From: Rhodocyclaceae bacterium
GTDB taxonomy: Bacteria; Pseudomonadota; Gammaproteobacteria; Burkholderiales; Rhodocyclaceae
Assembly (NCBI GenBank): GCA_020445745.1
Contig: JAGRGB010000135.1
Coordinates: 1 to 42,447 of the forward strand
Direction of reading: 5' to 3'
Length of the DNA stretch: 42,447 nucleotides
This document shows, one piece after another, positions 3,726 to 34,256 of this stretch (position 1 is the stretch's first letter; each line of letters starts with the position of its first letter). A program made the position numbers and the translations under genes. The notes below the pieces were generated by a model. That model saw only the letters and a program-made list of their open reading frames with translations, was not told where the DNA came from and did no database searches.

Positions 3726-4568
3726 TCACGACGTGCCGTTCTCGTCCACCCGGGCACGAGCTTCGAACTGGGTGTCCTCGGTATCCTCGGCATGCACCAC
3801 CAGCACGCCGGCGCCGTCGTGGCGGAAGTTGAAGCGGAAGCTCGGATTCTCGGCGATCGCGAAGGTGACCTCGGCGTTCATCACCGGCCGGTCGCGGTAG
3901 CTCACCGCGATCTTGCGCACGTAGTGGGGCTGCGGATACATCCGGGTGAGCTGGTCCATCGCCAGCCCGGTGACGTTGGGGTGGCGAATCAGCACCTGGG
4001 CGCGGGCGGCGCCGCCCGGCTGTGCGGGCGGCTCGATCCGCAGCTTGATGCGGCCCATGGACTGGGCGGCGGCGGCGGGATCCTTCGATGCCGGCGCCGA
4101 ACAGCCGCCGGAAGCCTTGACGAAGTTCGCGGTCATGTAGAGCTTGTCGTCGCTGGTCTCGGCGATCGCCCGCACGAAGGTGTAGTCGTTGACCCGCACC
4201 CGGGTCTCGACGTCGGCACCGGCGCTTTCCGGGAAGAAGTCGAACACGCCGACCACCGGCGTCGGGTTCTGGTCGATCAACAGCCACAGGCGCTTGATGT
4301 AGCGTCCGTCCGCGCCGTCGAGACGACCACGGATCGCGACCGGCACCGAAGCCGCGTCGGCGGCCCGGTAAGGGGTTTCCAGGCCGATCACGCCGTCGGC
4401 GTCGATCGCGATCTCGCGCTCGCCGAACAGTTGCCGGCGCAGCCCCTGCCACACTTCGACCGCGAGCGACTCGGCGGTGCCCGGGCCCTTCCTGCTCGGT
4501 GCCGCGATCGCCAGCCGTGCGCCCAGGGTCAGGCCCAGGCCCGCCGCGATGAATTGCCTGCGTTTCAT
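3726..4568 (-). CDS. Quinoprotein dehydrogenase-associated SoxYZ-like carrier protein
   Basis: This ~280-residue protein has a twin-arginine-like signal ('KRRQFIAAGLG', residues 2-12) and a fused SoxY-like plus SoxZ-like layout. A carrier cysteine lies in 'ASGGCSAP' at about residue 155. Such fused SoxYZ-like proteins are recognised partners of PQQ dehydrogenases, encoded with a metallohydrolase, but their cargo is not known. The start is set by GAGGAG seven bases before the ATG at 4568; an upstream in-frame ATG at 4592 lacks such a site. It is the last gene of the xox operon, 61 bp after the metallohydrolase, and ends at a hairpin. Confidence 0.85.
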   Translation of the reverse strand: MKRRQFIAAGLGLTLGARLAIAAPSRKGPGTAESLAVEVWQGLRRQLFGEREIAIDADGVIGLETPYRAADAASVPVAIRGRLDGADGRYIKRLWLLIDQNPTPVVGVFDFFPESAGADVETRVRVNDYTFVRAIAETSDDKLYMTANFVKASGGCSAPASKDPAAAAQSMGRIKLRIEPPAQPGGAARAQVLIRHPNVTGLAMDQLTRMYPQPHYVRKIAVSYRDRPVMNAEVTFAIAENPSFRFNFRHDGAGVLVVHAEDTEDTQFEARARVDENGTS

Positions 4569-4629
4569 GTCTGCCTCCTCGGGATCGTGCACCCGCGCCC
4601 TTTCGCCAACTGCGACCGGCCGATCCTCT

Positions 4630-5565
4630 TCAGTCTTCCCACTCCAGTTCCGTGTAGGCGGCGCTCAGGTTGCGGGCGTGGAAGCGCGCCGTCAGCGCCC
4701 AGTCGCCCGCCACCGTGCCGTCGTCGGCATCGAGCACCTCGCCCAGGGTGTCGCCGCGCGCGATCGCCGCCCGGACGGTGGCGGCCACGTGCTCGAGATA
4801 GGCCTTCTCCCTGGCCAGCGCTTCGCCGCCGTGCGCGACGATCGCGCCATGCCCGGGCAGCAGGCGCTCCGCCGGCAGCCGCGCGAGCCGCTCGATCGCA
4901 GCGAGCCAGCCGCGGATGCTGCCGTCGATGATCGGGATGAAGCGCTCGAACAGCAGGTCACCGGTCCACAGGCTGCCGGTGCGCTCGTCGAACACCGTCA
5001 GGTCGTTGTCGGTATGGGCGGTCGGCCATGCCTGGAGTGCGAGCGTGCGCCCGCCCAGGTCGAGCGACAGGCGGTCTTCGACGAGCCTCGTCGGATAGAC
5101 CGCGCGCGTACCCGCGGCGGCCTCGCCGAGCTCATGCGCGAGGGTCCGCAGATAGCCTTCGGCGCGCGCCGACAGGCTTGCCGGCATGCGCGCCGCGGCG
5201 ACGAACTCGACGCCGGCCTCGCCCTCGAAGCCTGCATTGCCGAAGACATGATCGAGATGCATGTGCGTATTGATCACGTAGCACACCGGCAGTTCCGTGC
5301 GTGCCCGCAGTGCGGCCCGCAGCGACTCGCCGATGCGCTGCGTACTGCCGGTGTCGATCACCGCGACGCAGCGCTCGCCGACGACGAAGCCGATATTCGC
5401 GATGTCGCCACCGTTTTCCGCGGCGAGGTCGGCGACCTGTCCCTGGTGGACGAACACCCCCGCCGCGACCTCGTCTACAGCAAAGGGCGCATCCGCGCCC
5501 GACACCCGCGCCGCGACCACCGCCAGCACCCCGCACACGGTCACGCCGGCTAGTCGAGGAAACAC
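4630..5565 (-). CDS. Quinoprotein-associated zinc metallohydrolase (metallo-beta-lactamase fold)
   Basis: This 311-residue exported protein has a signal peptide of about 24 residues. The metallo-beta-lactamase metal motif HxHxDH is in 'INTHMHLDHVFG', at about residues 97-108. Later metal-binding histidines appear in 'WPTAHTDNDLTV' and 'LLPGHGAIV'. It resembles the SoxH-related hydrolases that accompany SoxYZ-like carriers in quinoprotein gene sets. It starts with GTG at 5565, preceded by AAGGAGG about 10 bases upstream, and overlaps the preceding gene by 16 bp. The substrate is unknown; removal of a group bound to the SoxYZ-like cysteine is a reasonable inference. Confidence 0.85.
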   Translation of the reverse strand: MFPRLAGVTVCGVLAVVAARVSGADAPFAVDEVAAGVFVHQGQVADLAAENGGDIANIGFVVGERCVAVIDTGSTQRIGESLRAALRARTELPVCYVINTHMHLDHVFGNAGFEGEAGVEFVAAARMPASLSARAEGYLRTLAHELGEAAAGTRAVYPTRLVEDRLSLDLGGRTLALQAWPTAHTDNDLTVFDERTGSLWTGDLLFERFIPIIDGSIRGWLAAIERLARLPAERLLPGHGAIVAHGGEALAREKAYLEHVAATVRAAIARGDTLGEVLDADDGTVAGDWALTARFHARNLSAAYTELEWED

Positions 5566-5936: not shown

Positions 5937-6625
5937 TGTACGGGTTCCGACAGGGTCAGCACCTCTTCGATCCGCGGCCCGCGCTCCCCGGGTGCGGGCT
6001 CGACGCTGGTCCGCAGCCGGAAGATGCCGCCGGGCACCAGCTCGGACAGCGTGAACTCGTAGCGCTTGCGTTCCATGCCGCGAAAGCGCCGGCGGTTGGG
6101 GTCGTCCCGGTAGGGGCTCACCGCGACCTGCGTACCCTCGAGCCGCCGGCCACCGTATTCGAAACTGACCGGCTCGATCCGGGCGTCGCCGGCGAGCGCC
6201 AGGCGGATGCGCTTGCGGAAGTAGTTCTCCATGCCGCCGAGGCGGCGCCGCATCTCGCGCACGTCGCGTTCGAGGAAGAACAGCACCACCGGATTGGCGG
6301 CCGCATGATCGACCTCCGGCAGCGCCAGGCGGCGCTCGCCGTGAAGGAATTCGGCGCTGACCACCCGGCCGCGCTCGGCGTCCGTCCGGACATCGAGCGT
6401 GACCGAATCCTCGATGACCGCGGCGGCGTCCTCCCGCAGCACGAAGTCGTAGCGCAGGCGGCGAGGATCGTCGACACCGCGCAGGTGCTCGTCGACGAAC
6501 ACCGCACGTTCCGCGTCCGAGAAGTCGCCGGCGGTCGCGGCCGACGGCTCCAGCCACACCGTCAGCGCCAGCAGCCACAGGGCGTGCAGGCACCGGGCGA
6601 CGCCGTCAGCGTTCCGCGGCGCCAT
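5933..6625 (-). CDS. Secreted protein of the xox operon, unrecognised
   Basis: This 230-residue protein has a signal peptide (about residues 1-32, ending 'AATAGDF') and a beta-rich periplasmic part with no cysteine pattern or catalytic motif I can name. The mature region has a 'DVREMRRRLGGMENYFRKRI' helix and a C-terminal strand-rich part. The ATG at 6625 has GGAGGG seven bases upstream. It overlaps xoxJ by 20 bp and the next gene by 4 bp, which argues strongly that it is translated and works with its neighbours. A chaperone or assembly role for the dehydrogenase system is only a guess from context. Confidence 0.75.
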   Translation of the reverse strand: MAPRNADGVARCLHALWLLALTVWLEPSAATAGDFSDAERAVFVDEHLRGVDDPRRLRYDFVLREDAAAVIEDSVTLDVRTDAERGRVVSAEFLHGERRLALPEVDHAAANPVVLFFLERDVREMRRRLGGMENYFRKRIRLALAGDARIEPVSFEYGGRRLEGTQVAVSPYRDDPNRRRFRGMERKRYEFTLSELVPGGIFRLRTSVEPAPGERGPRIEEVLTLSEPVQ

Positions 6626-7475
6626 CCGCGCCCTCCAGCGCGAGGCGCGGCACGCCGAAGTCGTCGAGGATCGCGGCGATCTCGTCGCGATTCTCGTCGA
6701 TCAGGCGTTCGACCTCGGCCTGCCAGGCCGCCTCGCCGCGCCGCACGCCCATCGCCATCGCGTAATCGAACCGGACGCCGATCTCGGACTCGAGCGGCAC
6801 CACGCGCAGTTGCGGATCGCGGACGCGCTTGGCGAACCAGGCGCCGACCGGCCCCCACACCACGGCGACGTCGATCTTGCCTTCGGCGAGGTCGCGCTCG
6901 ACGATCTGCCCCGGATATTCGTCCGGATTCGGATTCATCGTCTTGTAGGGCACGCCGGAATCGACCAGCCCGTGGCGGGCCACCCAGGCCGAGCCCGGTG
7001 AGCGGTCGAAGACACCGATCTTCAGCTGCGCCAGCTGCTGCGCCGGCAGGGCCAGGAAATCCGCCTCGGTGTTCACGCCGTCGAGACCGCCACGGCCCGG
7101 CGCGAACACCATCACGTAGGTGGACCGGTAGTAGGGCTTGGTGGATGCCACCTGGCCCCAGCCCGCCGGCACGCCCATGACGATGTCGCACGGGTAGTCC
7201 TGGCCCGGGATCTTGAAACGGAGCGTGTTGCGGATGAAGCCGAGCCGTTGGGGAAACGTGAAGTATTCGACCGCCACCCCCAGCTTGCGCGCGAACAACT
7301 CGGCAATGCGGTCTTCGAAGCCCTCGCCCTTCATGTTCGCGAAGGGCATGTTGTTGGGATCCTTGCAGACGCGGAGATTCTTGTGCGGCATCGCGCTGCC
7401 GTCCGCGGCGATCGCTGCCGCTGACGACGCCAGCAGCAGCCCGGCGGCGATTCCGGAAATCCATGTGCTGCGCAT
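6606..7475 (-). CDS. xoxJ: XoxJ, periplasmic substrate-binding-like protein of the methanol dehydrogenase system
   Basis: This ~289-residue protein has a signal peptide (about 24 residues, ending 'AAIAADG') and the fold of a family 3 solute-binding protein. Motifs include 'LRVCKDPNNMPFANMKGEGFEDRIAELFA' (broken around the ligand site) and 'DIVMGVPAGW'. The family is the quinoprotein dehydrogenase-associated binding proteins (MoxJ/MxaJ/XoxJ), thought to help activate or mature the dehydrogenase rather than feed a transporter. It lies directly after xoxG (8-bp gap), the classic xoxF-G-J order. The ATG at 7475 begins the signal peptide. Confidence 0.93.
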   Translation of the reverse strand: MRSTWISGIAAGLLLASSAAAIAADGSAMPHKNLRVCKDPNNMPFANMKGEGFEDRIAELFARKLGVAVEYFTFPQRLGFIRNTLRFKIPGQDYPCDIVMGVPAGWGQVASTKPYYRSTYVMVFAPGRGGLDGVNTEADFLALPAQQLAQLKIGVFDRSPGSAWVARHGLVDSGVPYKTMNPNPDEYPGQIVERDLAEGKIDVAVVWGPVGAWFAKRVRDPQLRVVPLESEIGVRFDYAMAMGVRRGEAAWQAEVERLIDENRDEIAAILDDFGVPRLALEGADGAAER

Positions 7476-7483
7476 CTCGAGCC

Positions 7484-7885
7484 CTACTTCATCAGCTTGA
7501 CTTTGGCGCTGGTGATGGCGCCGTCGGAGCGACCCTTCAGATAGGCATAGAGATCGTCGAGATTCTCCATGACCTTCTTGTTGGTGTTCCATGCCGGCAT
7601 GCCCTTGGCCATGCGGCCCTCGGTCAGCACCTTGGAGAAGTCGTCGCGCGTCAATACCTTCAGGCTGTCGATCAGTGAAGGTCCGACCAGGCCCTCCTGG
7701 TTGGGACCATGGCAGCGGTCACAGGCGGCCGCCCGCCACACCTTGAAGCCGTTGTAGGTGGCGGCATCGACCTTGTTGCCATCCTCCACCGTGTAGAGCG
7801 GCTTGTCGCCACCGGCCAGTGCCGCCAGCGGCATGGTCACCGCCAGCGCCAGGCCGGCGATCCGACCCAAGAATCCTCGCTCCAT
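7484..7885 (-). CDS. xoxG: XoxG, c-type cytochrome electron acceptor of XoxF
   Basis: This ~133-residue protein has a signal peptide (about 25 residues) and one haem site, CDRCH (Cys55, Cys58, His59). A Met in 'MAKGMPAW' is the likely axial ligand. Class I cytochromes of this type accept electrons from lanthanide methanol dehydrogenase in the periplasm and pass them to the terminal oxidase chain. GGAGGGG seven bases before the ATG at 7885 decides the start over a TTG at 7900. It follows xoxF after a 149-bp gap that contains a strong hairpin. Confidence 0.93.
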   Translation of the reverse strand: MERGFLGRIAGLALAVTMPLAALAGGDKPLYTVEDGNKVDAATYNGFKVWRAAACDRCHGPNQEGLVGPSLIDSLKVLTRDDFSKVLTEGRMAKGMPAWNTNKKVMENLDDLYAYLKGRSDGAITSAKVKLMK

Positions 7886-7977
7886 GTACAACCCCTCCAA
7901 TGCTGTCGATTGTCGGTACGCGGGCCGATGCCGCGCCTCGTGCCGGCGCTGTCGCGCAGTGCCGGCCGGATGTTCGA

Positions 7978-8008
7978 ACGAGCCCCCGGCATGGCGCCGG
8001 GGGCTCGT
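7978..8008 (-). terminator. Strong hairpin between xoxF and xoxG
   Basis: A 13-bp perfect stem (arms 7978-7990 and 7996-8008) with a 5-base ATGGC loop lies 27 bp after the xoxF stop. There is no long T-run after it on the minus strand. It therefore looks like an attenuating or mRNA-protecting structure that would make xoxF more abundant than xoxGJ, rather than a full intrinsic terminator. Confidence 0.6.
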
Positions 8009-8034
8009 CGGGATGCTGCGTCAACCGACCCCCG

Positions 8035-9837
8035 TCAGGGAATCGCGAAGACCGTCAGGGAACCACCAAGGTTGGTGAACTTCTGCAGGTCGCGGTAGCC
8101 GCCCACCGCGCCGAGGCCGTCGCTGTCCTTCTCGAGGCCCGCGGCCATGCCGATACCGGCCCAGCCACCGATGCCCGAATACACGCCGACGTACTGCTTG
8201 CCCTTGTGCAGGTAGGTGAACACGTTGCCGATGATTCCGGACGGCGTCTTGAACTTCCACAGCTCCTTGCCGTCCTTCAGGCTCACGGCCTTCAGGTAGC
8301 CTTCCAGCGTGCCATAGAAGATCACGTCACCGGCCGTGGTCAGCGCACCGCTCCACACCGAGAACTGCTCGGGCTTGGACCACACGATCTTGCCCTGGCC
8401 AGCGTCCCAGGCGACGAAGTTGCCCATCCCGCCATGGCTGTTCGGCGCCGGATACATCGCCAGCGTCGCGCCGACATACGGCTGACCGGCCGTGTATTCG
8501 ACCTCGAACGGCTCGTAGTCCATGCAGACGTGGTTGGTCGGCACGTAGAACAGGCCGGTCTTGGGATGGAACGCGGCAGGTTGCTGGTCCTTGGTTCCCA
8601 GCGCGGCCGGGCAGATGCCCTTCGAGTTCACGTCCGGGCCGTTTTGCTCGGTACTGTACTGTGCGACGACCTGCGGACGACCGCTCTTCATGTCCACGTG
8701 GGTCGCCCAGTTCACTGCCGGGTCGTACTTCTCGGCCACCAGCAGTTCGCCGGTCACGCGATCGAGCGTGTAGCCGAAGCCGTTGCGGTCGAAATGCACC
8801 AGTGCCTTGTGCTTCTGGCCCTTGACGTCGATGTCCGCGAGGATCATCTCGTTGATGCCGTCGAAGTCCCACTCGTCGTGAGGCGTCATCTGGTAGACCC
8901 ATTTCACGGCGCCGGTGTCGAGGTTTCGTGCCCAGATGCTCATCGACCAGCGGTTGTCGCCCGGACGCTGGGTCGGGTTCCAGGTACTCGGGTTGCCGGT
9001 GCCGTAGTAGAGCAGGTTCTCGGCGCGGTCATAGGAGTACCAGCCCCAGGTCGTGCCGCCGCCGATCTTCCACTGGTCGCCCTGCCAGGTCTGCAACGAC
9101 GAATCCTTGCCGACCGCCTGCATCTTGCCGTCCATCCAGGTCATGGTCTTGGCGGGATCGATCAGCATCTCGTTGTCCGGGCCGGTCGAGTAACCGCGCC
9201 ACACCATCTTGCCGCTCTTGATGTCGTAGGCGGAGATGTAGCCACGCACGCCCCATTCGCCACCGGAGATGCCGGTGATGACCTTGTCGCCGAACACGTG
9301 CGGTGCGTTGGTGTTCACCGCGCCGAGCTTCGGATCACCGTTGGTCGCAGACCACACCACCTTGCCGGTCTTGGCGTCCAGCGCTTCCAGCACCGAGTCG
9401 GCCCGTTGCAGGAAGACCTTGCCGTCGCCGTAGGCGAGGCCGCGGTTGACGGTGTCGCAGCACATCTGCGCGATCACCGCGGCATCCTGCTTGGGCGTGT
9501 GCTTCCAGACGATCTGCTGGGTGTTCAGATCGACGGCATAGACGTTGTTCGGGAATGGCGAGTGGATGTACATCATGTCGCCGATGACCAGCGGCGAGCC
9601 CTCGTGACCGCGCAGCACCCCGGTCGAGAAGGTCCATGCCACCTGCAACTTGTCGACGTTGCCGGCCTTGATCTGGTCCAGCGAGCTGTAGCGCTGGTTG
9701 TACTCGTCACCGGCTTGCGATGCCCAGTTGCCGGGATCCTTCATGGCCCGATCGAGATCCGCGTCCGCAAACGCGACTCCCGCCGCCGTCATGCAGGCTA
9801 CCGTGGCCGCCACCTTGTGCTTAAGCCCTGCGATCAT
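8035..9837 (-). CDS. xoxF: XoxF, lanthanide-dependent PQQ methanol dehydrogenase
   Basis: This 600-residue protein has a signal peptide (about residues 1-25) and is an eight-bladed quinoprotein. The vicinal disulfide Cys126-Cys127 ('QMCCDT') is present. Metal ligands are Glu194 ('SGGEWG'), Asn282 ('GTGNPST') and the catalytic Asp324. The extra aspartate Asp326 in 'EWDFDGINE' is the marker of lanthanide-type XoxF; calcium MxaF has Ala there. It oxidises methanol in the periplasm with PQQ and a light lanthanide. AAAGGAG six bases before the ATG at 9837 sets the start. It heads the operon to 3726, and a consensus sigma-54 promoter lies 140 bp upstream. Confidence 0.97.
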
Positions 9838-9977
9838 TCATGTCTCCTTTTTTTACCCCCCAGGATGCCGACGCTTGTCGAAAGCCCGGAACCTGTGTTC
9901 CCGCCGGGTCGGGCAGTTGCCCTTCGGACGGCGGAACTTCGGACAAGACTCGAGCGAATCTTTCCGACGATCGCACC

Positions 9978-9993
9978 TGCAAGTCATGTGCCA
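9978..9993 (-). promoter_or_regulatory. xoxF: Consensus sigma-54 promoter of xoxF
   Basis: The minus strand reads TGGCAC-ATGAC-TTGCA, a full match to the sigma-54 consensus TGGCAC-N5-TTGCW with GG-N10-GC spacing. The predicted start is near 9967, giving a leader of about 130 bases before the xoxF ribosome-binding site. Sigma-54 promoters need an AAA+ enhancer-binding activator; one is encoded at 16979-18952. Confidence 0.82.
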
Positions 9994-10147
9994 CTGAGCG
10001 GAACGGGCAGACCGGATGCAACGGCTCAATCACGCCGGCGTGGCCCTGGTCGCATCGTTGGCGCCGGAAAAGCGCGCCGTCGCGACGGCCGGGGACCGAC
10101 GTGCGACAGCGCCCGACGAGCGCTGCGCGCTCGACAAGGCACGACCG

Positions 10148-10173
10148 GTTACACACTGCGACGTGACACTTTG
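10148..10173. promoter_or_regulatory. Tandem 11-bp motifs upstream of the xoxF promoter
   Basis: GTTACACACTG (10148-10158) and GTGACACTTTG (10163-10173) each match the fhcB repeat GTGACACAGTG at 9 of 11 bases. They lie in tandem 15 bp apart and 155-180 bp upstream of the xoxF -24 box. That is a usual distance for an enhancer bound by a sigma-54 activator. Binding by the local activator is inferred. Confidence 0.45.
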
Positions 10174-10336
10174 CTCCCCGATGCACACAGCGCATCGTTC
10201 GTCAAGTCAGCCGCCACCCGGTCTTGCCGGGGCCCCCTCGGAATCGGCTCTGCTGGCGCCCCCGCGGACGCTGCCGACCGCCGAGCACGCCGGTGCGACT
10301 GGCATGGATCGTGATTCGGGAGTGAGGCGGCCCGCC

Positions 10337-11041
10337 CTAGGGTCGGAGCGCCACGGGAGGAATCCGAAGTTCATGAAGCACCGACGCCACCAGCCAGGCC
10401 GATGCCGGGCCGCGGGCGGCAGCGGCCAGATCTCCCCCATCACGAATGCCACCCGCACCGACGTAGCGGAGGCCGGGGCGCTGGCGATGGAGGCGTTCGA
10501 CGGTCTCCAGATCCGGGCCGTCGCCGCTGCCGACCCGGTCGAGGCTCATCGCGATCACCGTGCCCGGCCAGAGTTCCGGGGTGGACCAGCATCCGGCGCG
10601 ATCGGGCAGTGCCAGCCGGCGCTGATCGAGCGAGAGGATCGTCGACCCGCAGGCGAGCGCCTCGCGGGCCTGCCGCGCTCCCGCCAATGTCTCGCTCGCG
10701 AACACCGGTGCCACCCGCCGCGCGGCATCGCCGAGCTTGCCGCGCAGCCTGCGCCAGTCGCCGAGGTCACGAAAACCGGCGTCCAGCCAGATCGTCAGCG
10801 ACGGCTCCGCCGCGAGCAGCGCGGCGAACGACGCGGCCTGCGGCGAACCTCCGCCGAGCGCATCGAGATCGGCAACGTAGAGGAGGTGGCCGCTACAATG
10901 GCGCAGCATCGCCCTGGCCACGACGACCGGGTCGCTGCCCTCGCACAGCCCGGACACCACAGGGCGATAACTGGCGCGTTCGCCTCGAACGGCGCGAACC
11001 GCGCAACCGGACATCAGATCGACCACGGGAATTAACAGCAT
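10337..11041 (-). CDS. HisA-like TIM-barrel protein
   Basis: This 234-residue protein belongs to the HisA/HisF family. It keeps the N-terminal 'LLIPVVDLMSG' with Asp8, a second candidate catalytic Asp in 'ILSLDQRR', and a phosphate-binding 'GAGGIRDGG' near the end. True HisA isomerises a histidine-pathway intermediate (ProFAR to PRFAR). The position here, beside methylofuran and H4MPT genes and away from his genes, suggests a recruited paralogue in cofactor synthesis; that is inference. The ATG at 11041 overlaps the start codon of the divergent ATP-grasp gene, so control elements must lie inside coding sequence. Confidence 0.85.
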   Translation of the reverse strand: MLLIPVVDLMSGCAVRAVRGERASYRPVVSGLCEGSDPVVVARAMLRHCSGHLLYVADLDALGGGSPQAASFAALLAAEPSLTIWLDAGFRDLGDWRRLRGKLGDAARRVAPVFASETLAGARQAREALACGSTILSLDQRRLALPDRAGCWSTPELWPGTVIAMSLDRVGSGDGPDLETVERLHRQRPGLRYVGAGGIRDGGDLAAAARGPASAWLVASVLHELRIPPVALRP

Positions 11042-16978: not shown

Positions 16979-18952
<1,974 letters not shown>

Positions 18953-19083
18953 CGTCTCCCCCATTATCAGGTCAACCTGCGGGGCAAGCGGCAGGCGGTC
19001 TGTGTCGCCCTGTCGTCCGCTTCGTCTCCACCCATCCTGCTTGCAGATCCAACCTTCGCTGTTTTTCTTCAGCCGCGCTGCAA

Positions 19084-19089
19084 ATTATA
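19084..19089 (-). promoter_or_regulatory. TATAAT -10 box upstream of the sigma-54 activator gene
   Basis: The minus strand carries a perfect TATAAT within an unusually A+T-rich patch (about 19040-19095). It would start transcription near 19077 and give a leader of about 125 bases before the activator ATG. No good -35 hexamer is seen at 16-18 bp, so it may depend on another factor. Nothing else in 18953-19190 was recognised. Confidence 0.45.
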
Positions 19090-19190
19090 GCGCCCGCAAT
19101 GGGCCCGAAAGCCATCATTCCACACGTTTCGCCGCAAGGACGAGACTGTCGGCCGGGCCGCCACGGACATTTGCCGATGTGACGAAGGCA

Positions 19191-19775
19191 ATGGCCGGTT
19201 TTTTGCTTGACCGACCGCCACGGTTCGCGCCATCGTGGCCGGACCCGATCGACGAAGAGGCCGTCCGCTTGTCATTCGCCAGCCAGATTCGACCGCCCGC
19301 CGACGCCCGCGCCGCGGGCGCCGACCACACACCGCTGGACATCGTCTTCATCGACGGGTTCCGCGGCGACACCGTGATCGGCATCCATCACGACGAGTTG
19401 CACGATGCCCAGCCGGTGCGCATCGATCTGGCGATCGGCGTGCCGCGGCCACGCGCCTGCGACACCGATCGCATCGCCGACACGATCGACTACGGCGAGG
19501 TGCGCATGGCCCTGCGCGAGATGCTGGCGAACCACCGCTACCGGCTGCTGGAGGCCTTCGCCGAAGCCATCGCCGGCCTGCTGATCCAACGCTTCGGCGC
19601 CCACTGGGTCCGCATTGCGGTTGCCAAGCCCGCCAAGTTCGACGACGTCGACGGCGTCGGCGTGATCATCGAGCGCCGCCGCGACGATTTCCGCAGCGCC
19701 GGCAATGCCGCCCACGACGGCGAGGTGCTGAGCGTGCTGGGCGGCGGCCTGGTACCGGGCAGCAAGCTGCGTTGA
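19191..19775 (+). CDS. folB: Dihydroneopterin aldolase-like protein (FolB family)
   Basis: This ~194-residue protein has a FolB/tunnelling-fold core. It has 'LDIVFIDGFRGDTVIGIHHDEL' (broken around the substrate Glu region), 'TDRIADTIDYGEVRMAL', and 'VRIAVAKPAKF' with the conserved lysine. FolB enzymes cleave dihydroneopterin to 6-hydroxymethyl-dihydropterin, the pterin precursor shared by folate and H4MPT. It is longer than usual (about 120 residues), with a ~45-residue N-terminal and ~25-residue C-terminal extension, which suggests a cluster-specific form. The ATG at 19191 is preferred; GTG at 19179 is possible. It is divergent from the activator and convergent with fae. Confidence 0.82.
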   Translation: MAGFLLDRPPRFAPSWPDPIDEEAVRLSFASQIRPPADARAAGADHTPLDIVFIDGFRGDTVIGIHHDELHDAQPVRIDLAIGVPRPRACDTDRIADTIDYGEVRMALREMLANHRYRLLEAFAEAIAGLLIQRFGAHWVRIAVAKPAKFDDVDGVGVIIERRRDDFRSAGNAAHDGEVLSVLGGGLVPGSKLR

Positions 19776-29167: not shown

Positions 29168-32100
29168 TCATCGCCCGGCGACGTCGGCCATTGCGCGGAA
29201 CCCGCGAACACAGGAGAAATAGTCGGCCGATTGCGCCATCTCGATGCCGCTAGCGGCGATTGCTGCCGCCTGTTGCGAATCGCCCCGAGCATCGAGCACC
29301 CTGGCCATCGTCAGCAGTGCCTTGCACTTGACCAGCTTGAGATCGTAGAGCGCGGCGATGTCGGCACCAAATGCCGCCTCGTGCAGGGACTGTCGCGTCT
29401 CGCCCTGGCTCAGCAACACCTTGGCCCGCGTCTCGTGGGCTGCTGCGAGAATCCGCGGCATATCCATCGTCCGTCCGTAACGTTCGACGGATTCGACCAA
29501 GGCGAACGAATTGACATGGTCGTGGCCCTCGCGCAGCTTGGCCCTCGTTCTGACCAGAGTCAGCAAGCCGAGCATCCGCACGTCTTCGTGCCGCCCCCGC
29601 TGGGCGACGGCGACCGCCTCCTCGGCGAGCCGCTCGGCCTCGCTGCCACGTTCGGGATGGCGCGCAAGTTCGAGGTCGGCCTGGGCGCGGAGCACGAACG
29701 AGGCCGCCCGCGTCCGGTCCAGTTGGCGAAATCCTTCGAGCGCCTTCTGGTAGCGATTGGAGGCGGAGTGATATTCGCCGCCCAGGTGCTCGATGATGCC
29801 CAGGTAGAATTCGGCGATCAGCGGCAACATCTCGTGACCACAGCGCCGCGCGGCGATCGGCTCCAGCATCCGCCGGGCGTCGTACGGCCTTCCCCGCTCG
29901 ATCGCGGTCATCGCCAGATGCAGCAGGATCCTGGCGTGCAAGGACCCGGTGGCGTCGCACTCGACCTGGCGGGCAGCGCACAAGGCGAGCTTGAGCAGGC
30001 TCTCCGCGTCCTCGAGCTTGCCCTGGGTCAGGCTCATGACCCCGCATTCGGCGTACAGCCAGACGAGTTCCCCGGCATGGAAGAAGCCGGTACGGCGCTC
30101 TTCTACTCCCTGCGCACCTTCGGCAATCGTCGCGGCTTCGAATTTGGCCTGGAGGATCTTGGCCCGATGGGTGATCCAGCGAATCGAGCGCCGATACGCT
30201 TCCATGTGACCGGACTCACCATCGCTCGCGTCACGCGGCGCGGTCGCTGCGATGTGCGACAGCACACCCACCGAGTAGGTCGATCGCGCGACGAAGTAAG
30301 CGGCACGCAGCGCCTGGTACTGTTCGATGATTTCGGACGACGCGGCCTCGATCCCGACCGTGGCGGAGTCGCCCGCATCGTCGGCTGCTTCATTTCCCAC
30401 GTATTGACTGAGCGCATCGATCAGCGACTTGATGCGAAGATGGCCTCCAGCCGACAAGGACGGAACCTCGTCCGGCTGCGACGCATACATCGACGTCGCA
30501 AACTGGTCCCATTCGATCGATTCGATGTTGCGACCGCCCATCATGCGGAGAAAATAGCGCTGCACCGTGCGATGCACCGTATAGCGGCGATCCACATCTC
30601 GCTGAGTCTGCAGCCCCAGCTTCCGCCGGCTCACACGCAAGGCCAGGCAGCGAACCGCGCAGAGGTCGGCGACGACACCGACCAGTTCGTGTTTCAAGCC
30701 GCCACATATTTGTTCGCGACGGTCAATGTCGAGAAACCTCAGTGGTCCGTCCCGCGCGATTTCGAGCCAGCCTTCGACTGCATTGCGGATCTCCGGGCAA
30801 CGTTTCAGCACGGCCAGTTCGACCGGATGGGACATCACCGACAGATGCCAGAGGATCTCCTGACTCAATTGCCAGGTGGATCCCCGCAGATCCATTGAAT
30901 CCAGCAGGGGATCGATGACCAACTGCTCGAGCTCTCTGTTACCTCCGCTCTTGTGCAAACAAAGTGCTTGCGCGAGCAGCTTCCGCAGCGCCTCGTCCTG
31001 GGTCGGCTTCCTGGCCGGCTTCATATGAAGCGCCGACCAATGATCGAACACCAGTTGCATCGTGGCTTCCGGCGCATCCTCGAAGATCTGTGACGCAAGC
31101 CTGACGCTCAACGACTCCAGGACGCCACAGACCTGTTCGCGCAGTTCGCACAGATCTCCTTCGTTGAAATTCGTGATGCCTTCTTCGCGGCCATCCTTTT
31201 CACGGTCGTTCGGGGTGATCCAATCGGGGATTCCGCACTCCTCGGAGCAAAGTGCGAGAATCATCGTGATCGCGATCCGGTTGCCACCAACCGCCTGGTG
31301 GAGGCTTTGAAGACACTGATCGAGGCCGTCGTCAGGCAGCAAGCGGCCAAGGAACGGTCCGGCCACTTCGCTAGCACGTTCGTGACCCGGCGCGAATATG
31401 TGCTCGCTCCTGGATATCGCGTCGGTGCAACGGATCCCCTGCATCGCGAGCCGGTTCGGCCACTCGTAGCTCGCCGGGCCTCGGGTGTCGCCCCCGATGC
31501 CGTCGCCGCCCGCAACAGCACTGCTCGAGTCCACGTTGCGGAATCGCCGCGGCACATGGCCTTCATCGCAGAACACGACGAAATCGATCGGCGCCACCTC
31601 GAAGCGCGGATCCCGCAACAGGCGCAGCAAGCGCAATACCAATCCGTTCTTTTCGCGCCCATCCCCGTCGAACAGCATTCCGGCATTGGTCAGCACGATC
31701 AATACGCGTTGCTGCGTCAGCGGTTTCGGTAAGTCCCGCTTCGCGCAAAGTTCGAGCGCTTTTTCCAGACGCCCATAGATGTTGCGGGCAGGCAGCTGGT
31801 GTCCTTCCTTCAGCTTCGGGGCAATGACATGGGCGAATAGTTCGGCGATCGTCGCGACATCGGAGAGAAAATTCAGGCTGACAAGAGCGCAGCGCCAGCC
31901 CAGGACCGCCCCGCGGCGTCTCCAGCCAAAGCCGACCGGTGCTGGCTGCAATGCCAATTGCAATGCCGCCAGGGTTTTCGACCCGTCGCACGCCAGTTGC
32001 TCGAACATGCAGCCCTTGCCGGCACCGCGCCGCACCGGCAGCAACACGAGGCGACGGCCATCGAACTGCTTGAACGCCTTGTGCTGGTTCAGCCGCTCGA

Positions 32101-33985
32101 ACAGTTGCCGCCAGCGGGAATCCGGTTCGTCCTTGCAATTCGCGGCAAAGCGGTCGTGAAGTTTCCCTTCGACAAGATCCCCCGGCTCGTGGCGCAGATG
32201 GCAATAGACATTGGAGCCCGGTTTCAGCTTGAAATCCGTCTGGCAGGGCGCGGCAGGTTCGGCCAGATACTTTTCCCGCGCAGCCCGGTACATCTGCTCG
32301 GTTTTCAAGCGCGCGCATAGACAGGCGGAGGTAACGGAGGTCCGCAAATCGTCTAGCAGGACACGCAGGCTCTTGTAGTCCAGATCCTGAGGCAGAATGC
32401 CTCGAGCAAGCACCGTGCTGATTTCATTGAGCAGTTCGACCTCGATGCCGACATCGAAATGGCTGACGTCGGTTCCATGATAAATGCAGTCCTTGTTCGG
32501 ACATCCCTGGCCATCGATGCAGGGCGGCGTCTCGAGCGTTACTTCCAACTCCGCCCAATCCGTACCTTCGAGCATCCGCTTCCTCAGCTCGAGTTCTTCC
32601 GGCCACATCGCGAGGGCCCTGCATCGCTTCTCGACGAGCGCAATCCGATTCGTGAATTGGCAGAGCCAGGATTCGTCCTCCCAGTCCATGCCGCCTGCTT
32701 CGGCCGAGGCTTGTGAATTGCATTCCGGGCACGCGCTGTAGCCGTAATGGACGATGTGGATCCCGTAACGTAGCAGTGCCTCGATCTTCTGTAGCCGGAG
32801 GTCCTTCTCCCGCTTCGCTGCCGGCAACAGCGCGACGCCCAAGGTGTCGCCGACACGCGGCGTGCGACTCATGAACTCGCGCAATGGCCGCAGCACGTCA
32901 TCCTCGGAAATGCTCGACCCGACGTACAGAATCGGATTGGCCGCGAAAAGCGAGCGCAGTGCAGCGGCCAGCAGGTCGCGGCGCTTCGATTGGCGCAGAT
33001 AGCGTCGCTGGTAATCCCGCTCGGAAGCGATCAGATCGCGATCGTCGATGCGGCCATGCAGATGCAGCACCGATGCGTGCCGACGACGGCCATCGACCGC
33101 GAAGCCGAAGGCCCGCGCCGACGCATCGGCCGACACCACGATCGAATCGACACAGGCATCGGTCGGCGCCGGATCCTGCCCGTCGATCTTCCCGCCAGAC
33201 GCTGGCGCCAACGGCTTCCGTCCCGCAGTCACCAGCGCATTCTGGATTTCGCTGTCGTAATTGGTCGTGGCGAAGCGCTGGATCTTGAAATCGTTGATCA
33301 GAATCGCCAACGGCGAAGTGGCGTCATTCGTGTGGAGTGACTGCTCCCGTGGAGGAATCCGTGGCCCGATCTGTAGCAGCCGGAGGTAGTGGCGGCGTGC
33401 AGGCTCCCCGATCGCGCCCTTCGCATCGCTCTTGTTCGCCACACGGTTCAATATCTCGATGAACCACTGGCATTTGCTCAGACCGTCGATCGCAGCAATC
33501 AGGTTTTCATCGTGCGCGCGAGGACTCTCGAGCGCCCTCCTGAACGTACCCGCGATGACCCTTGTCTCGTGGTCTTGCCCAGCCGCACTCTGCAGGACAT
33601 CCTCGCACAGTTGCAGGATAAGCAATTGCTTGTCGGCGGGCAGGTCGCCTTCGAAATCACCTTCGTCGCCGGACGACAACAAGCCGAGTTCGTTCGAAAG
33701 TGTCTCTCGACGCCGGCGCATTTCGGGCGTCAGCCTTTCACCCGCGCCCAGATCCCTGACCTCTCGCAGCACATCTCTGACCAGGTTATGCCAGGACTGC
33801 CGCCCATAGGCCATCGACACGCCGGCACCGATGAACGCCAGCAAGCGCCCATGAGTTGCCCCGCGCGCGAGAATTTCGCGCCCATGGCGGGCAATGGACG
33901 CCCCTTTCAGCGACGAATGGATCTGTCCGGCCAGGTATGGCCAAGTGGATTCGACAGGGTATCGCGGCCTCCCATCCTCCGCCAT
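29168..33985 (-). CDS. Very large SIR2-like / P-loop / TPR protein, candidate antiphage defence gene
   Basis: This ~1605-residue protein opens with a SIR2-like NADase domain: 'LLAFIGAGVSMAYG' at about 49-62, 'RFATTNYDSEI' at about 237-247, 'VLHLHGRIDD' at about 306-315 and 'LYVGSSISEDDVLRPL' at about 354-369. A cysteine-rich part follows (CPEC at 419-422, CPNKDC at 495-500). Next is a P-loop-like 'VRRGAGKG' at about 651-658, a long helical region, and TPR-like helical repeats from about 1260 to the end. Effector-NTPase-repeat layouts of this kind occur in Avs/STAND-type defence proteins, where phage sensing triggers NAD+ loss. GAGGGAGG before the ATG at 33985 sets the start over 34087. Its base composition is visibly less G+C-rich than its neighbours, suggesting transfer. 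Confidence 0.85.
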   Translation of the reverse strand: MAEDGRPRYPVESTWPYLAGQIHSSLKGASIARHGREILARGATHGRLLAFIGAGVSMAYGRQSWHNLVRDVLREVRDLGAGERLTPEMRRRRETLSNELGLLSSGDEGDFEGDLPADKQLLILQLCEDVLQSAAGQDHETRVIAGTFRRALESPRAHDENLIAAIDGLSKCQWFIEILNRVANKSDAKGAIGEPARRHYLRLLQIGPRIPPREQSLHTNDATSPLAILINDFKIQRFATTNYDSEIQNALVTAGRKPLAPASGGKIDGQDPAPTDACVDSIVVSADASARAFGFAVDGRRRHASVLHLHGRIDDRDLIASERDYQRRYLRQSKRRDLLAAALRSLFAANPILYVGSSISEDDVLRPLREFMSRTPRVGDTLGVALLPAAKREKDLRLQKIEALLRYGIHIVHYGYSACPECNSQASAEAGGMDWEDESWLCQFTNRIALVEKRCRALAMWPEELELRKRMLEGTDWAELEVTLETPPCIDGQGCPNKDCIYHGTDVSHFDVGIEVELLNEISTVLARGILPQDLDYKSLRVLLDDLRTSVTSACLCARLKTEQMYRAAREKYLAEPAAPCQTDFKLKPGSNVYCHLRHEPGDLVEGKLHDRFAANCKDEPDSRWRQLFERLNQHKAFKQFDGRRLVLLPVRRGAGKGCMFEQLACDGSKTLAALQLALQPAPVGFGWRRRGAVLGWRCALVSLNFLSDVATIAELFAHVIAPKLKEGHQLPARNIYGRLEKALELCAKRDLPKPLTQQRVLIVLTNAGMLFDGDGREKNGLVLRLLRLLRDPRFEVAPIDFVVFCDEGHVPRRFRNVDSSSAVAGGDGIGGDTRGPASYEWPNRLAMQGIRCTDAISRSEHIFAPGHERASEVAGPFLGRLLPDDGLDQCLQSLHQAVGGNRIAITMILALCSEECGIPDWITPNDREKDGREEGITNFNEGDLCELREQVCGVLESLSVRLASQIFEDAPEATMQLVFDHWSALHMKPARKPTQDEALRKLLAQALCLHKSGGNRELEQLVIDPLLDSMDLRGSTWQLSQEILWHLSVMSHPVELAVLKRCPEIRNAVEGWLEIARDGPLRFLDIDRREQICGGLKHELVGVVADLCAVRCLALRVSRRKLGLQTQRDVDRRYTVHRTVQRYFLRMMGGRNIESIEWDQFATSMYASQPDEVPSLSAGGHLRIKSLIDALSQYVGNEAADDAGDSATVGIEAASSEIIEQYQALRAAYFVARSTYSVGVLSHIAATAPRDASDGESGHMEAYRRSIRWITHRAKILQAKFEAATIAEGAQGVEERRTGFFHAGELVWLYAECGVMSLTQGKLEDAESLLKLALCAARQVECDATGSLHARILLHLAMTAIERGRPYDARRMLEPIAARRCGHEMLPLIAEFYLGIIEHLGGEYHSASNRYQKALEGFRQLDRTRAASFVLRAQADLELARHPERGSEAERLAEEAVAVAQRGRHEDVRMLGLLTLVRTRAKLREGHDHVNSFALVESVERYGRTMDMPRILAAAHETRAKVLLSQGETRQSLHEAAFGADIAALYDLKLVKCKALLTMARVLDARGDSQQAAAIAASGIEMAQSADYFSCVRGFRAMADVAGR

Positions 33986-34256
33986 GCCAGACGCCTCCCT
34001 CGTAGCACGGTCGACAGCTGGACGCGGCCGCGTTTCCGCCCGCGGCGCCAGCGCATGCCTTGAGCATGCCGCAGCACACAATCTCATTCAACAAGTTTTT
34101 GGCAGACACTCGGCAGGCGCGCCGGGCTGGCGGGAGGGAGGTGGCGCGATGACGCCACGAGGGTTCGGCGGGGGCAATCTCGAGCCCTGCGTGCACTGCC
34201 GGAAGTCGCCGCAGGCTAGCTTGCCTCGCCGCCAAGGGCGTCGACCCGACACGTCA

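Follow-up and report, generated by a model that had tools for sequence, protein, structure and literature searches.

A perfect sigma-54 promoter match upstream of xoxF and a linked GAF-PAS activator gene in a Rhodocyclaceae bacterium

The xoxF promoter region and its linked activator gene

Contig JAGRGB010000135.1 of a Rhodocyclaceae bacterium (assembly GCA_020445745.1), a stretch of 42,447 nucleotides referred to here as the window, contains a xoxF gene preceded by a perfect match to the sigma-54 promoter consensus. XoxF methanol dehydrogenase is a pyrroloquinoline quinone (PQQ) propeller enzyme with an extra aspartate two residues after the catalytic aspartate; the protein encoded here has WDFDG at residue 323, which we take to be the motif expected of a lanthanide enzyme. 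The promoter element is accompanied by a conserved block resembling an upstream activating sequence (UAS) and by a gene for a bacterial enhancer-binding protein (bEBP), and a second promoter of like design lies ahead of an fhcB-like gene. The coordinates of these features are collected in Table 1.

Table 1. Features of the window considered in this study
Feature	Position	Strand	Basis
Sigma-54 -24/-12 element of xoxF, TGGCACATGACTTGCA	9978-9993	minus	zero mismatches; start predicted at about 9967
UAS-like block, GGAGCAAAGTGTCACGTCGCAGTGTGTAACCG	10146-10177	minus	32 invariant columns in five genus genomes
xoxF, PQQ dehydrogenase with WDFDG motif	8035-9837	minus	TIGR03075 above cut-off, 740 bits
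bEBP, GAF-PAS-AAA+(GAFTGA)-HTH_8	16979-18964	minus	domain and motif search
CTATAAT, possible sigma-70 -10 element of activator gene	19084-19090	minus	ATTATAG on plus strand, kept in 5/5 genus genomes
fhcB/fwdB-like gene (formyltransferase/hydrolase complex)	530-1765	minus	TIGR03129, 155 bits, below cut-off of 327.8
Second sigma-54 element, ahead of fhcB-like gene, TGGCATATGTCTTGCT	1777-1792	minus	second best in window (18.9)
UAS copy ahead of fhcB-like gene, TGACACAGTGTGCC	1869-1882	minus	exact TGACACASTGTGYC match; kept in five genus genomes
Second UAS copy ahead of fhcB-like gene, TGACACAGTGGC	1838-1849	minus	comparison of five genus genomes
Weaker sigma-54-like element ahead of folB-like gene, TGGCCGGTTTTTTGCT	19192-19207	plus	GG and GC cores kept in five genus genomes
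c-type cytochrome, XoxG-like by position	7484-7900	minus	TIGR03874 and MoxG models below cut-off
XoxJ/MoxJ-like periplasmic protein	6606-7592	minus	TIGR03871 above cut-off
Quinoprotein relay zinc metallohydrolase 2	4630-5565	minus	TIGR04559 above cut-off
Quinoprotein-associated SoxYZ-like carrier	3726-4592	minus	TIGR04557 above cut-off

The xoxF element agrees with TGGCAC-N5-TTGCW throughout, with its GG and GC cores ten bases apart. The preliminary description of this DNA had read TGGCAC-ATGAC-TTGCA as a full sigma-54 match 140 bp ahead of the xoxF ATG, with transcription starting near 9967; the match is exact at that distance from the ATG at 9837, and the -12 C at 9979 leads to the same predicted start. 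This is the sole perfect match in the window, where dinucleotide shuffles gave a mean of 0.03 (3 of 100 shuffles contained one), and by weight matrix it is the top-scoring sigma-54 site there (20.6). Allowing two mismatches brings no enrichment (22 matches versus 16.25 expected), so the weight rests on the perfect match. The genome encodes sigma-54 from a single rpoN copy and contains 12 perfect matches, compared with 1 for the reversed pattern. In a mechanical look downstream of these 12, nine had a plausible reading frame whose start lies no more than about 150 bp away; for three (L003, L005 and L006) there was no plausible frame in the available stretch, two of them lying near a contig end. 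UAS-like elements within 260 bp were found at the xoxF site only.

Six genomes of the genus were searched, and XoxF was found in five (G000, G001, G002, G004 and G005); the sixth, rated 100% complete, has no XoxF at E 1e-150. In an alignment of the five upstream regions 154 of 568 columns are invariant, and the 16-mer is unchanged in all five within otherwise diverged DNA, which answers the suggestion in the preliminary description that conservation in close relatives be checked. The alignment contains six invariant runs of at least five columns: the 32-bp UAS-like block, a 17-bp run covering the promoter (9977-9993) and four in the leader and start-codon region (19, 17, 14 and 5). Outside the 60-bp leader, the promoter run and the upstream block are the only ones. 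The plus strand of the block contains two one-mismatch copies of TGACACNNTGNG (10149-10160 and 10164-10175). Its centre lies 165, 166, 166 or 167 bp from the -24 element in four of the genomes and 188 bp in the other, a shift of about two helical turns, as would be expected if block and promoter meet by looping.

The activator gene was anticipated as a GAFTGA-containing activator 7 kb away, and the reading frame that begins at about this distance conforms to that description. The predicted protein combines a GAF (and PAS) sensor with an AAA+ domain containing GAFTGA and a Fis-type helix-turn-helix, a type that we take to be AcoR/DhaR; further motifs are GETGAGKE and GTLFLDE. The PAS_4 match falls just short of the Pfam cut-off (22.9 versus 23.1), and the nearest NCBIfam model, DhaR, is below its cut-off. 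A close activator (83-100% identical) is present in the same five genus genomes as xoxF, and the sixth has a 43% relative at best. The two genes share one contig in G000, G002, G004 and G005 and are on different contigs in G001.

Sites and activators at xoxF in other genera

Linkage between xoxF and relatives of the activator was followed in 80 named xoxF loci in 78 searchable genomes (L096 was left out; L071 and L101 come from the same genome). At E 1e-130, relatives are present in 26 of 40 and 25 of 39 genomes of two sets, or 50 of the 78 distinct genomes. Among 44 loci tabulated for linkage (43 with a match, plus L086), where equal contig size was taken to indicate the same contig, 36 have a relative at 0.9-65 kb from xoxF, one (Methyloversatilis) has it 3.2 Mb away and 7 have none on the contig; the L086 match is N-terminal and lies at the edge of its flank. 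The loci of 7 further genomes with a match stand outside this table, the relative there being on a contig of different size. Linkage is therefore seen in 36 of the 50 genomes that have a relative. In an activator tree of 75 of 88 sequences (13 near-copies dropped), 35 of 37 xoxF-linked rows fall on one 49-row branch (SH-aLRT 100), and 24 of the linked rows are in a 29-row branch that includes the window's activator. G001 is included among the 37 on grounds of kinship, although its two genes do not share a contig; the two outside the main branch are G014 and G058. The sequences thus show directly a conserved promoter element, a conserved upstream block and an activator linked to xoxF, and the predicted activator 7 kb away belongs to a family that is often xoxF-linked.

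Sites of this kind also precede xoxF outside the genus. When the 500 bp upstream of xoxF were scanned by weight matrix in 98 segments (L071 was too short), 17 segments reached at least 16 bits, versus 0 when read backwards and 1 on the reverse complement; these 17 contain repeats of the same DNA and come from 14 genomes. At 12 bits or more the counts were 36, 2 and 11. In loci of Paraburkholderia/Caballeronia type the 12-mer CATGGAATATGC is present within two mismatches in 23 of 23 (19 exact), 138-170 bp ahead of the predicted start, and TGACACAGTATG in 22 of 23 (19 exact), at 233-366 bp. Candidatus Paraburkholderia kirkii (L090) has a site without the GG, and no activator match was found for it.

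Site and activator tend to occur together. This was assessed in 78 named xoxF loci (L071 too short, L096 left out), counting sites of at least 8.5 bits at -60 to -300. A site is present in 29 of 34 loci with a relative of at least 700 bits (backward control 0), in 9 of 14 with a relative of 470-700 bits (backward 2) and in 1 of 2 below 470 (backward 0), versus 4 of 28 without any relative (backward 4). The four site-only loci are L086, with its activator fragment, the drafts L035 and L042, and L114, which scores lower forwards than backwards. On a XoxF tree of 89 rows (44 with both, 11 with activator only, 6 with site only and 28 with neither), 13 independent pairs yielded 6.7 for the association and 0.3 against it, with a median p of 0.031 (range 0.004-0.69). 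In Ramlibacter, xoxF lies behind fae, and the best site of the locus (14.2 bits) lies between the activator and a FolB-like gene, both judged by eye; a UAS-like GGAACAGAGTGTCG is located above that site.

The fhcB-like promoter, upstream motifs and neighbouring genes

The second sigma-54 element, ahead of the fhcB-like gene, is kept in all five genus genomes, with its first 15 bases invariant and the last A or T. Across these genomes the two UAS copies above it read GTGACACAGTGTG[CT]C and TTGACACA[CG]TG. The predicted transcript start, at about 1766, falls on the ATG at 1765, and in the three genus genomes in which this frame was read 11-12 bp separate the site from the ATG, so the mRNA may be leaderless. 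Given a second promoter of like design at this gene, control is likely to cover the fhcB-like gene besides xoxF, as a putative one-carbon (C1) regulon.

The upstream motif was searched for more widely. The exact TGACACASTGTGYC sequence occurs once in the genome, at the fhcB-like promoter; at two mismatches there are 30 matches versus 16 backward, palindromes being counted on both strands, so that only the exact match carries weight. Five of the nine one-mismatch TGACACNNTGNG matches in the window, at four places, lie within 500 bp above the xoxF and fhcB-like promoters (0.1 expected), a clustering that serves as a guide only because it was tested after the motif had been seen. A form with spacing two bases too short, GTGTCAC-N6-GTGTNAC, gave nothing above background (24 matches versus 25 in the backward control). 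When spacings were compared against single-base shuffles, no one dyad suited all clades. In the Paraburkholderia/Caballeronia loci GACAC-N5-GTGTC and GACAC-N3-GTGTC each match 22 of 23 within two mismatches, the former exactly in 14. At the same tolerance, 8 of 13 Comamonadaceae-type loci have spacing three, where 2.9 are expected, and 7 have spacing five (2.8 expected). All five genus xoxF regions have spacings six and eight, and three of the five have spacing three. Neither spacing three nor spacing five is in excess in the Massilia, Pollutimonas/Candidimonas and Nevskia groups.

A joint scan of the window, the 80 named loci and 4 genus stretches, combining a 12-bit site with GACAC-N3-GTGTC at no more than one mismatch, returned 12 places. 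All five fhcB-like promoters are among them, as are two Caballeronia xoxF promoters and, in two Variovorax, an ABC-transporter promoter that faces xoxF. The remaining three are a site in a Paraburkholderia, ahead of a gene that by eye is likely to encode a pterin dehydratase, and two places that are less clear. A UAS-like TGACAAACTGTGTC beside an fdhD-like gene (by eye) on contig 72 of G000 (9904-9917, L220) was considered and set aside, as no sigma-54 site next to it is convincing; the best scores 9.7 and has a broken -12.

Downstream of xoxF the order is cytochrome, XoxJ/MoxJ-like protein, relay metallohydrolase and SoxYZ-like carrier, so that xoxF adjoins a c-type cytochrome, for which the specific models are below cut-off, and a MoxJ-like gene. 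Genes of tetrahydromethanopterin (H4MPT)-pathway type are located elsewhere in the window: Fae, Mch, Mpt_N, DUF6513, a flavoprotein, a FolB-like protein and others. Near the C1 genes, 29168-34087 encodes a protein of 1639 residues that has a SIR2-like domain and is possibly the product of a defence gene. The closest named XoxF matches are mostly drafts and genomes of Betaproteobacteria/Burkholderiales kind, to which the bacterium itself probably belongs; the XoxF of one draft labelled Bordetella parapertussis (L068) is 76% identical to that of the window, and its label looks doubtful.

In the genome, rated 100% complete, no second, mxaF-type methanol dehydrogenase was seen in a survey that included no dedicated mxaF model, and the next best PQQ dehydrogenase is 39% identical to XoxF. 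With no calcium-type MxaFI to switch with, the control of xoxF here looks like induction rather than a lanthanide swap. Other PQQ dehydrogenase genes of G000 are on contigs 175, 149 and 99, of which 175 and 149 have perfect sigma-54 sites and 175 and 99 carry further GAF-type activators, so sigma-54 control of quinoprotein genes may be wider in this genome.

Proposed control of xoxF, alternatives and known systems

We consider it probable that xoxF is transcribed by sigma-54 polymerase from the element at 9978-9993, activated via the linked GAF-PAS-AAA+-Fis protein and the upstream block, with the fhcB-like gene co-activated. The activator, perhaps made from its own sigma-70 promoter and maybe at a steady level, would detect a C1 signal with its GAF/PAS part. 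It would bind TGACAC-N3-GTGTCA-type elements in the upstream block, about 165 bp above the promoter, reach the sigma-54 polymerase by DNA looping, remodel it and open the xoxF promoter. We infer this binding, activation and looping from the arrangement of the sequences. The same activator would turn on the fhcB-like gene and perhaps folB, so that methanol oxidation and formaldehyde removal via the H4MPT path would be induced together. The inducing signal, we would guess, is most likely methanol or formaldehyde, given that BmoR and other bEBPs of its kind respond to alcohols. The preliminary description saw in the sigma-54 promoter a different switch for xoxF; site conservation, activator linkage and the co-occurrence of site and activator speak for this, but not as the replacement of a lanthanide switch, and control is probably wider than xoxF.

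Several observations count against the proposed sigma-54 control through the linked activator. The UAS consensus was found post hoc and is degenerate at the window's xoxF: no GACAC-N3-GTGTC or GACAC-N5-GTGTC dyad is present there within two mismatches, and neither this promoter nor those of the genus passed the joint scan, which makes their upstream block a degenerate version of the element at best. The 9 one-mismatch matches to TGACACNNTGNG in the window compare with 8.9 by chance. The 8.5-bit cut-off was set after the Paraburkholderia sites had been seen, and p values of the pair test reach 0.69. Ramlibacter, Azohydromonas and Methylibium have no site despite a strong relative, and in Piscinibacter (7.1) and Rhizobacter SG703 (8.1), which also have one, the site is just under the cut-off. 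Five of the 14 loci with a weaker relative lack a site (two of five Massilia, two of Methyloversatilis type and L101), and L035 and a Thauera draft have a site with no relative detected. That one genus member lacks both genes may come down to the absence of a single island.

It is unlikely, in our view, that the promoter is real but answers to another bEBP of the genome, the linked protein serving other C1 genes. There are four further genome matches to the activator at E 1e-90, and the xoxF contigs of G014 and G058 carry bEBPs of other branches; linkage, clade and co-occurrence nevertheless favour the linked protein, and related upstream elements stand at the fhcB-like promoter in the same window. 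We give slightly less credit to the view that xoxF is expressed mainly from a promoter closer to the gene, of sigma-70 or other type, that went unrecognised; the sigma-54 site would then be minor and the leader would exert control. The last 60 bp ahead of the xoxF ATG are nearly invariant across the genus, including a leader stretch (9856-9895) just ahead of the ribosome-binding site. A riboswitch there was considered and is unsupported: in three genomes the predicted hairpin has no stability beyond that of shuffled sequences, and the window has no Rfam match. No sigma-70-like match was found at 7400-10350, a null that is little informative because only 0.3 were expected.

Least credible is a chance match of the 16-mer in GC-rich DNA, which we regard as very improbable. 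A few perfect matches are expected by chance in a genome of 4.9 Mb (1 in the backward control, about 3 by scaling the window shuffles), but invariance in five genomes amid diverged DNA and the recurrence of similar sites at xoxF in other genera argue otherwise. Control by sigma-54 and the linked activator is thus the reading we retain. A broader proposal, offered tentatively and with somewhat more doubt than conviction, is that this activator family acts as the master regulator of C1 oxidation in a large part of the Burkholderiales-type bacteria. Methanol or formaldehyde would be sensed by one protein that, through related upstream elements and sigma-54, turns on xoxF, H4MPT genes (fhc and the folB cluster) and accessory quinoprotein genes; no lanthanide switch would be involved.

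In the papers covered here, control of xoxF works through two-component systems and the lanthanide switch (passages of PMC5018670), and xoxF is present in many Burkholderiales-type genomes. The arrangement at the window's xoxF, which many related bacteria retain, suggests how they switch on methanol oxidation. The named promoter, upstream element and activator, with the like promoter at the fhcB-like gene, are directly testable and provide a candidate methanol or formaldehyde sensor. In the literature covered, which leaves out most subscription journals, we found no report of sigma-54 control of xoxF and no paper on how Burkholderiales-type bacteria turn xoxF on.

Control by sigma-54 and an activator is itself of a known kind; at xoxF no earlier report was found. 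The exaA gene of Azospirillum brasilense is said, in work by Singh from 2017, to be controlled by sigma-54 and a LuxR-type regulator. Sigma-54 control of exaA in Azospirillum is cited in a passage of PMC6115532; this system shares a sigma-54-dependent PQQ alcohol dehydrogenase with ours, but its regulator is LuxR-type and the enzyme is not called XoxF. Excerpts of the same source describe PedS2/PedR2 of Pseudomonas putida, which also controls PQQ dehydrogenases, there through a two-component system with a rare-earth switch and ethanol-type enzymes. MxaY/MxaB and MxbDM likewise control transcription of xoxF (and mxaF), as two-component systems with a lanthanide switch between two enzymes; the passages of PMC5018670 on them do not name sigma-54 control of xoxF. 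The rpoN control of soluble methane monooxygenase (in part of PMC5874634) shares sigma-54 at a C1 oxidation operon but acts on mmo, one step earlier, in methanotrophs, and in Methylosinus sporium 5 sigma-54 sites are described at nitrogen genes (in part of PMC12403871). A resemblance in design is also seen with BmoR and Pbmo of Thauera butanivorans, described in sections of PMC8899819 and PMC6366067, where an alkane/alcohol oxidation operon likewise has a sigma-54 promoter, an alcohol-responsive bEBP and a far-upstream UAS. There the UAS lies 193 bp away (PMC8899819), versus about 165 bp at the window's xoxF, and BmoR controls butane monooxygenase rather than a lanthanide methanol dehydrogenase.
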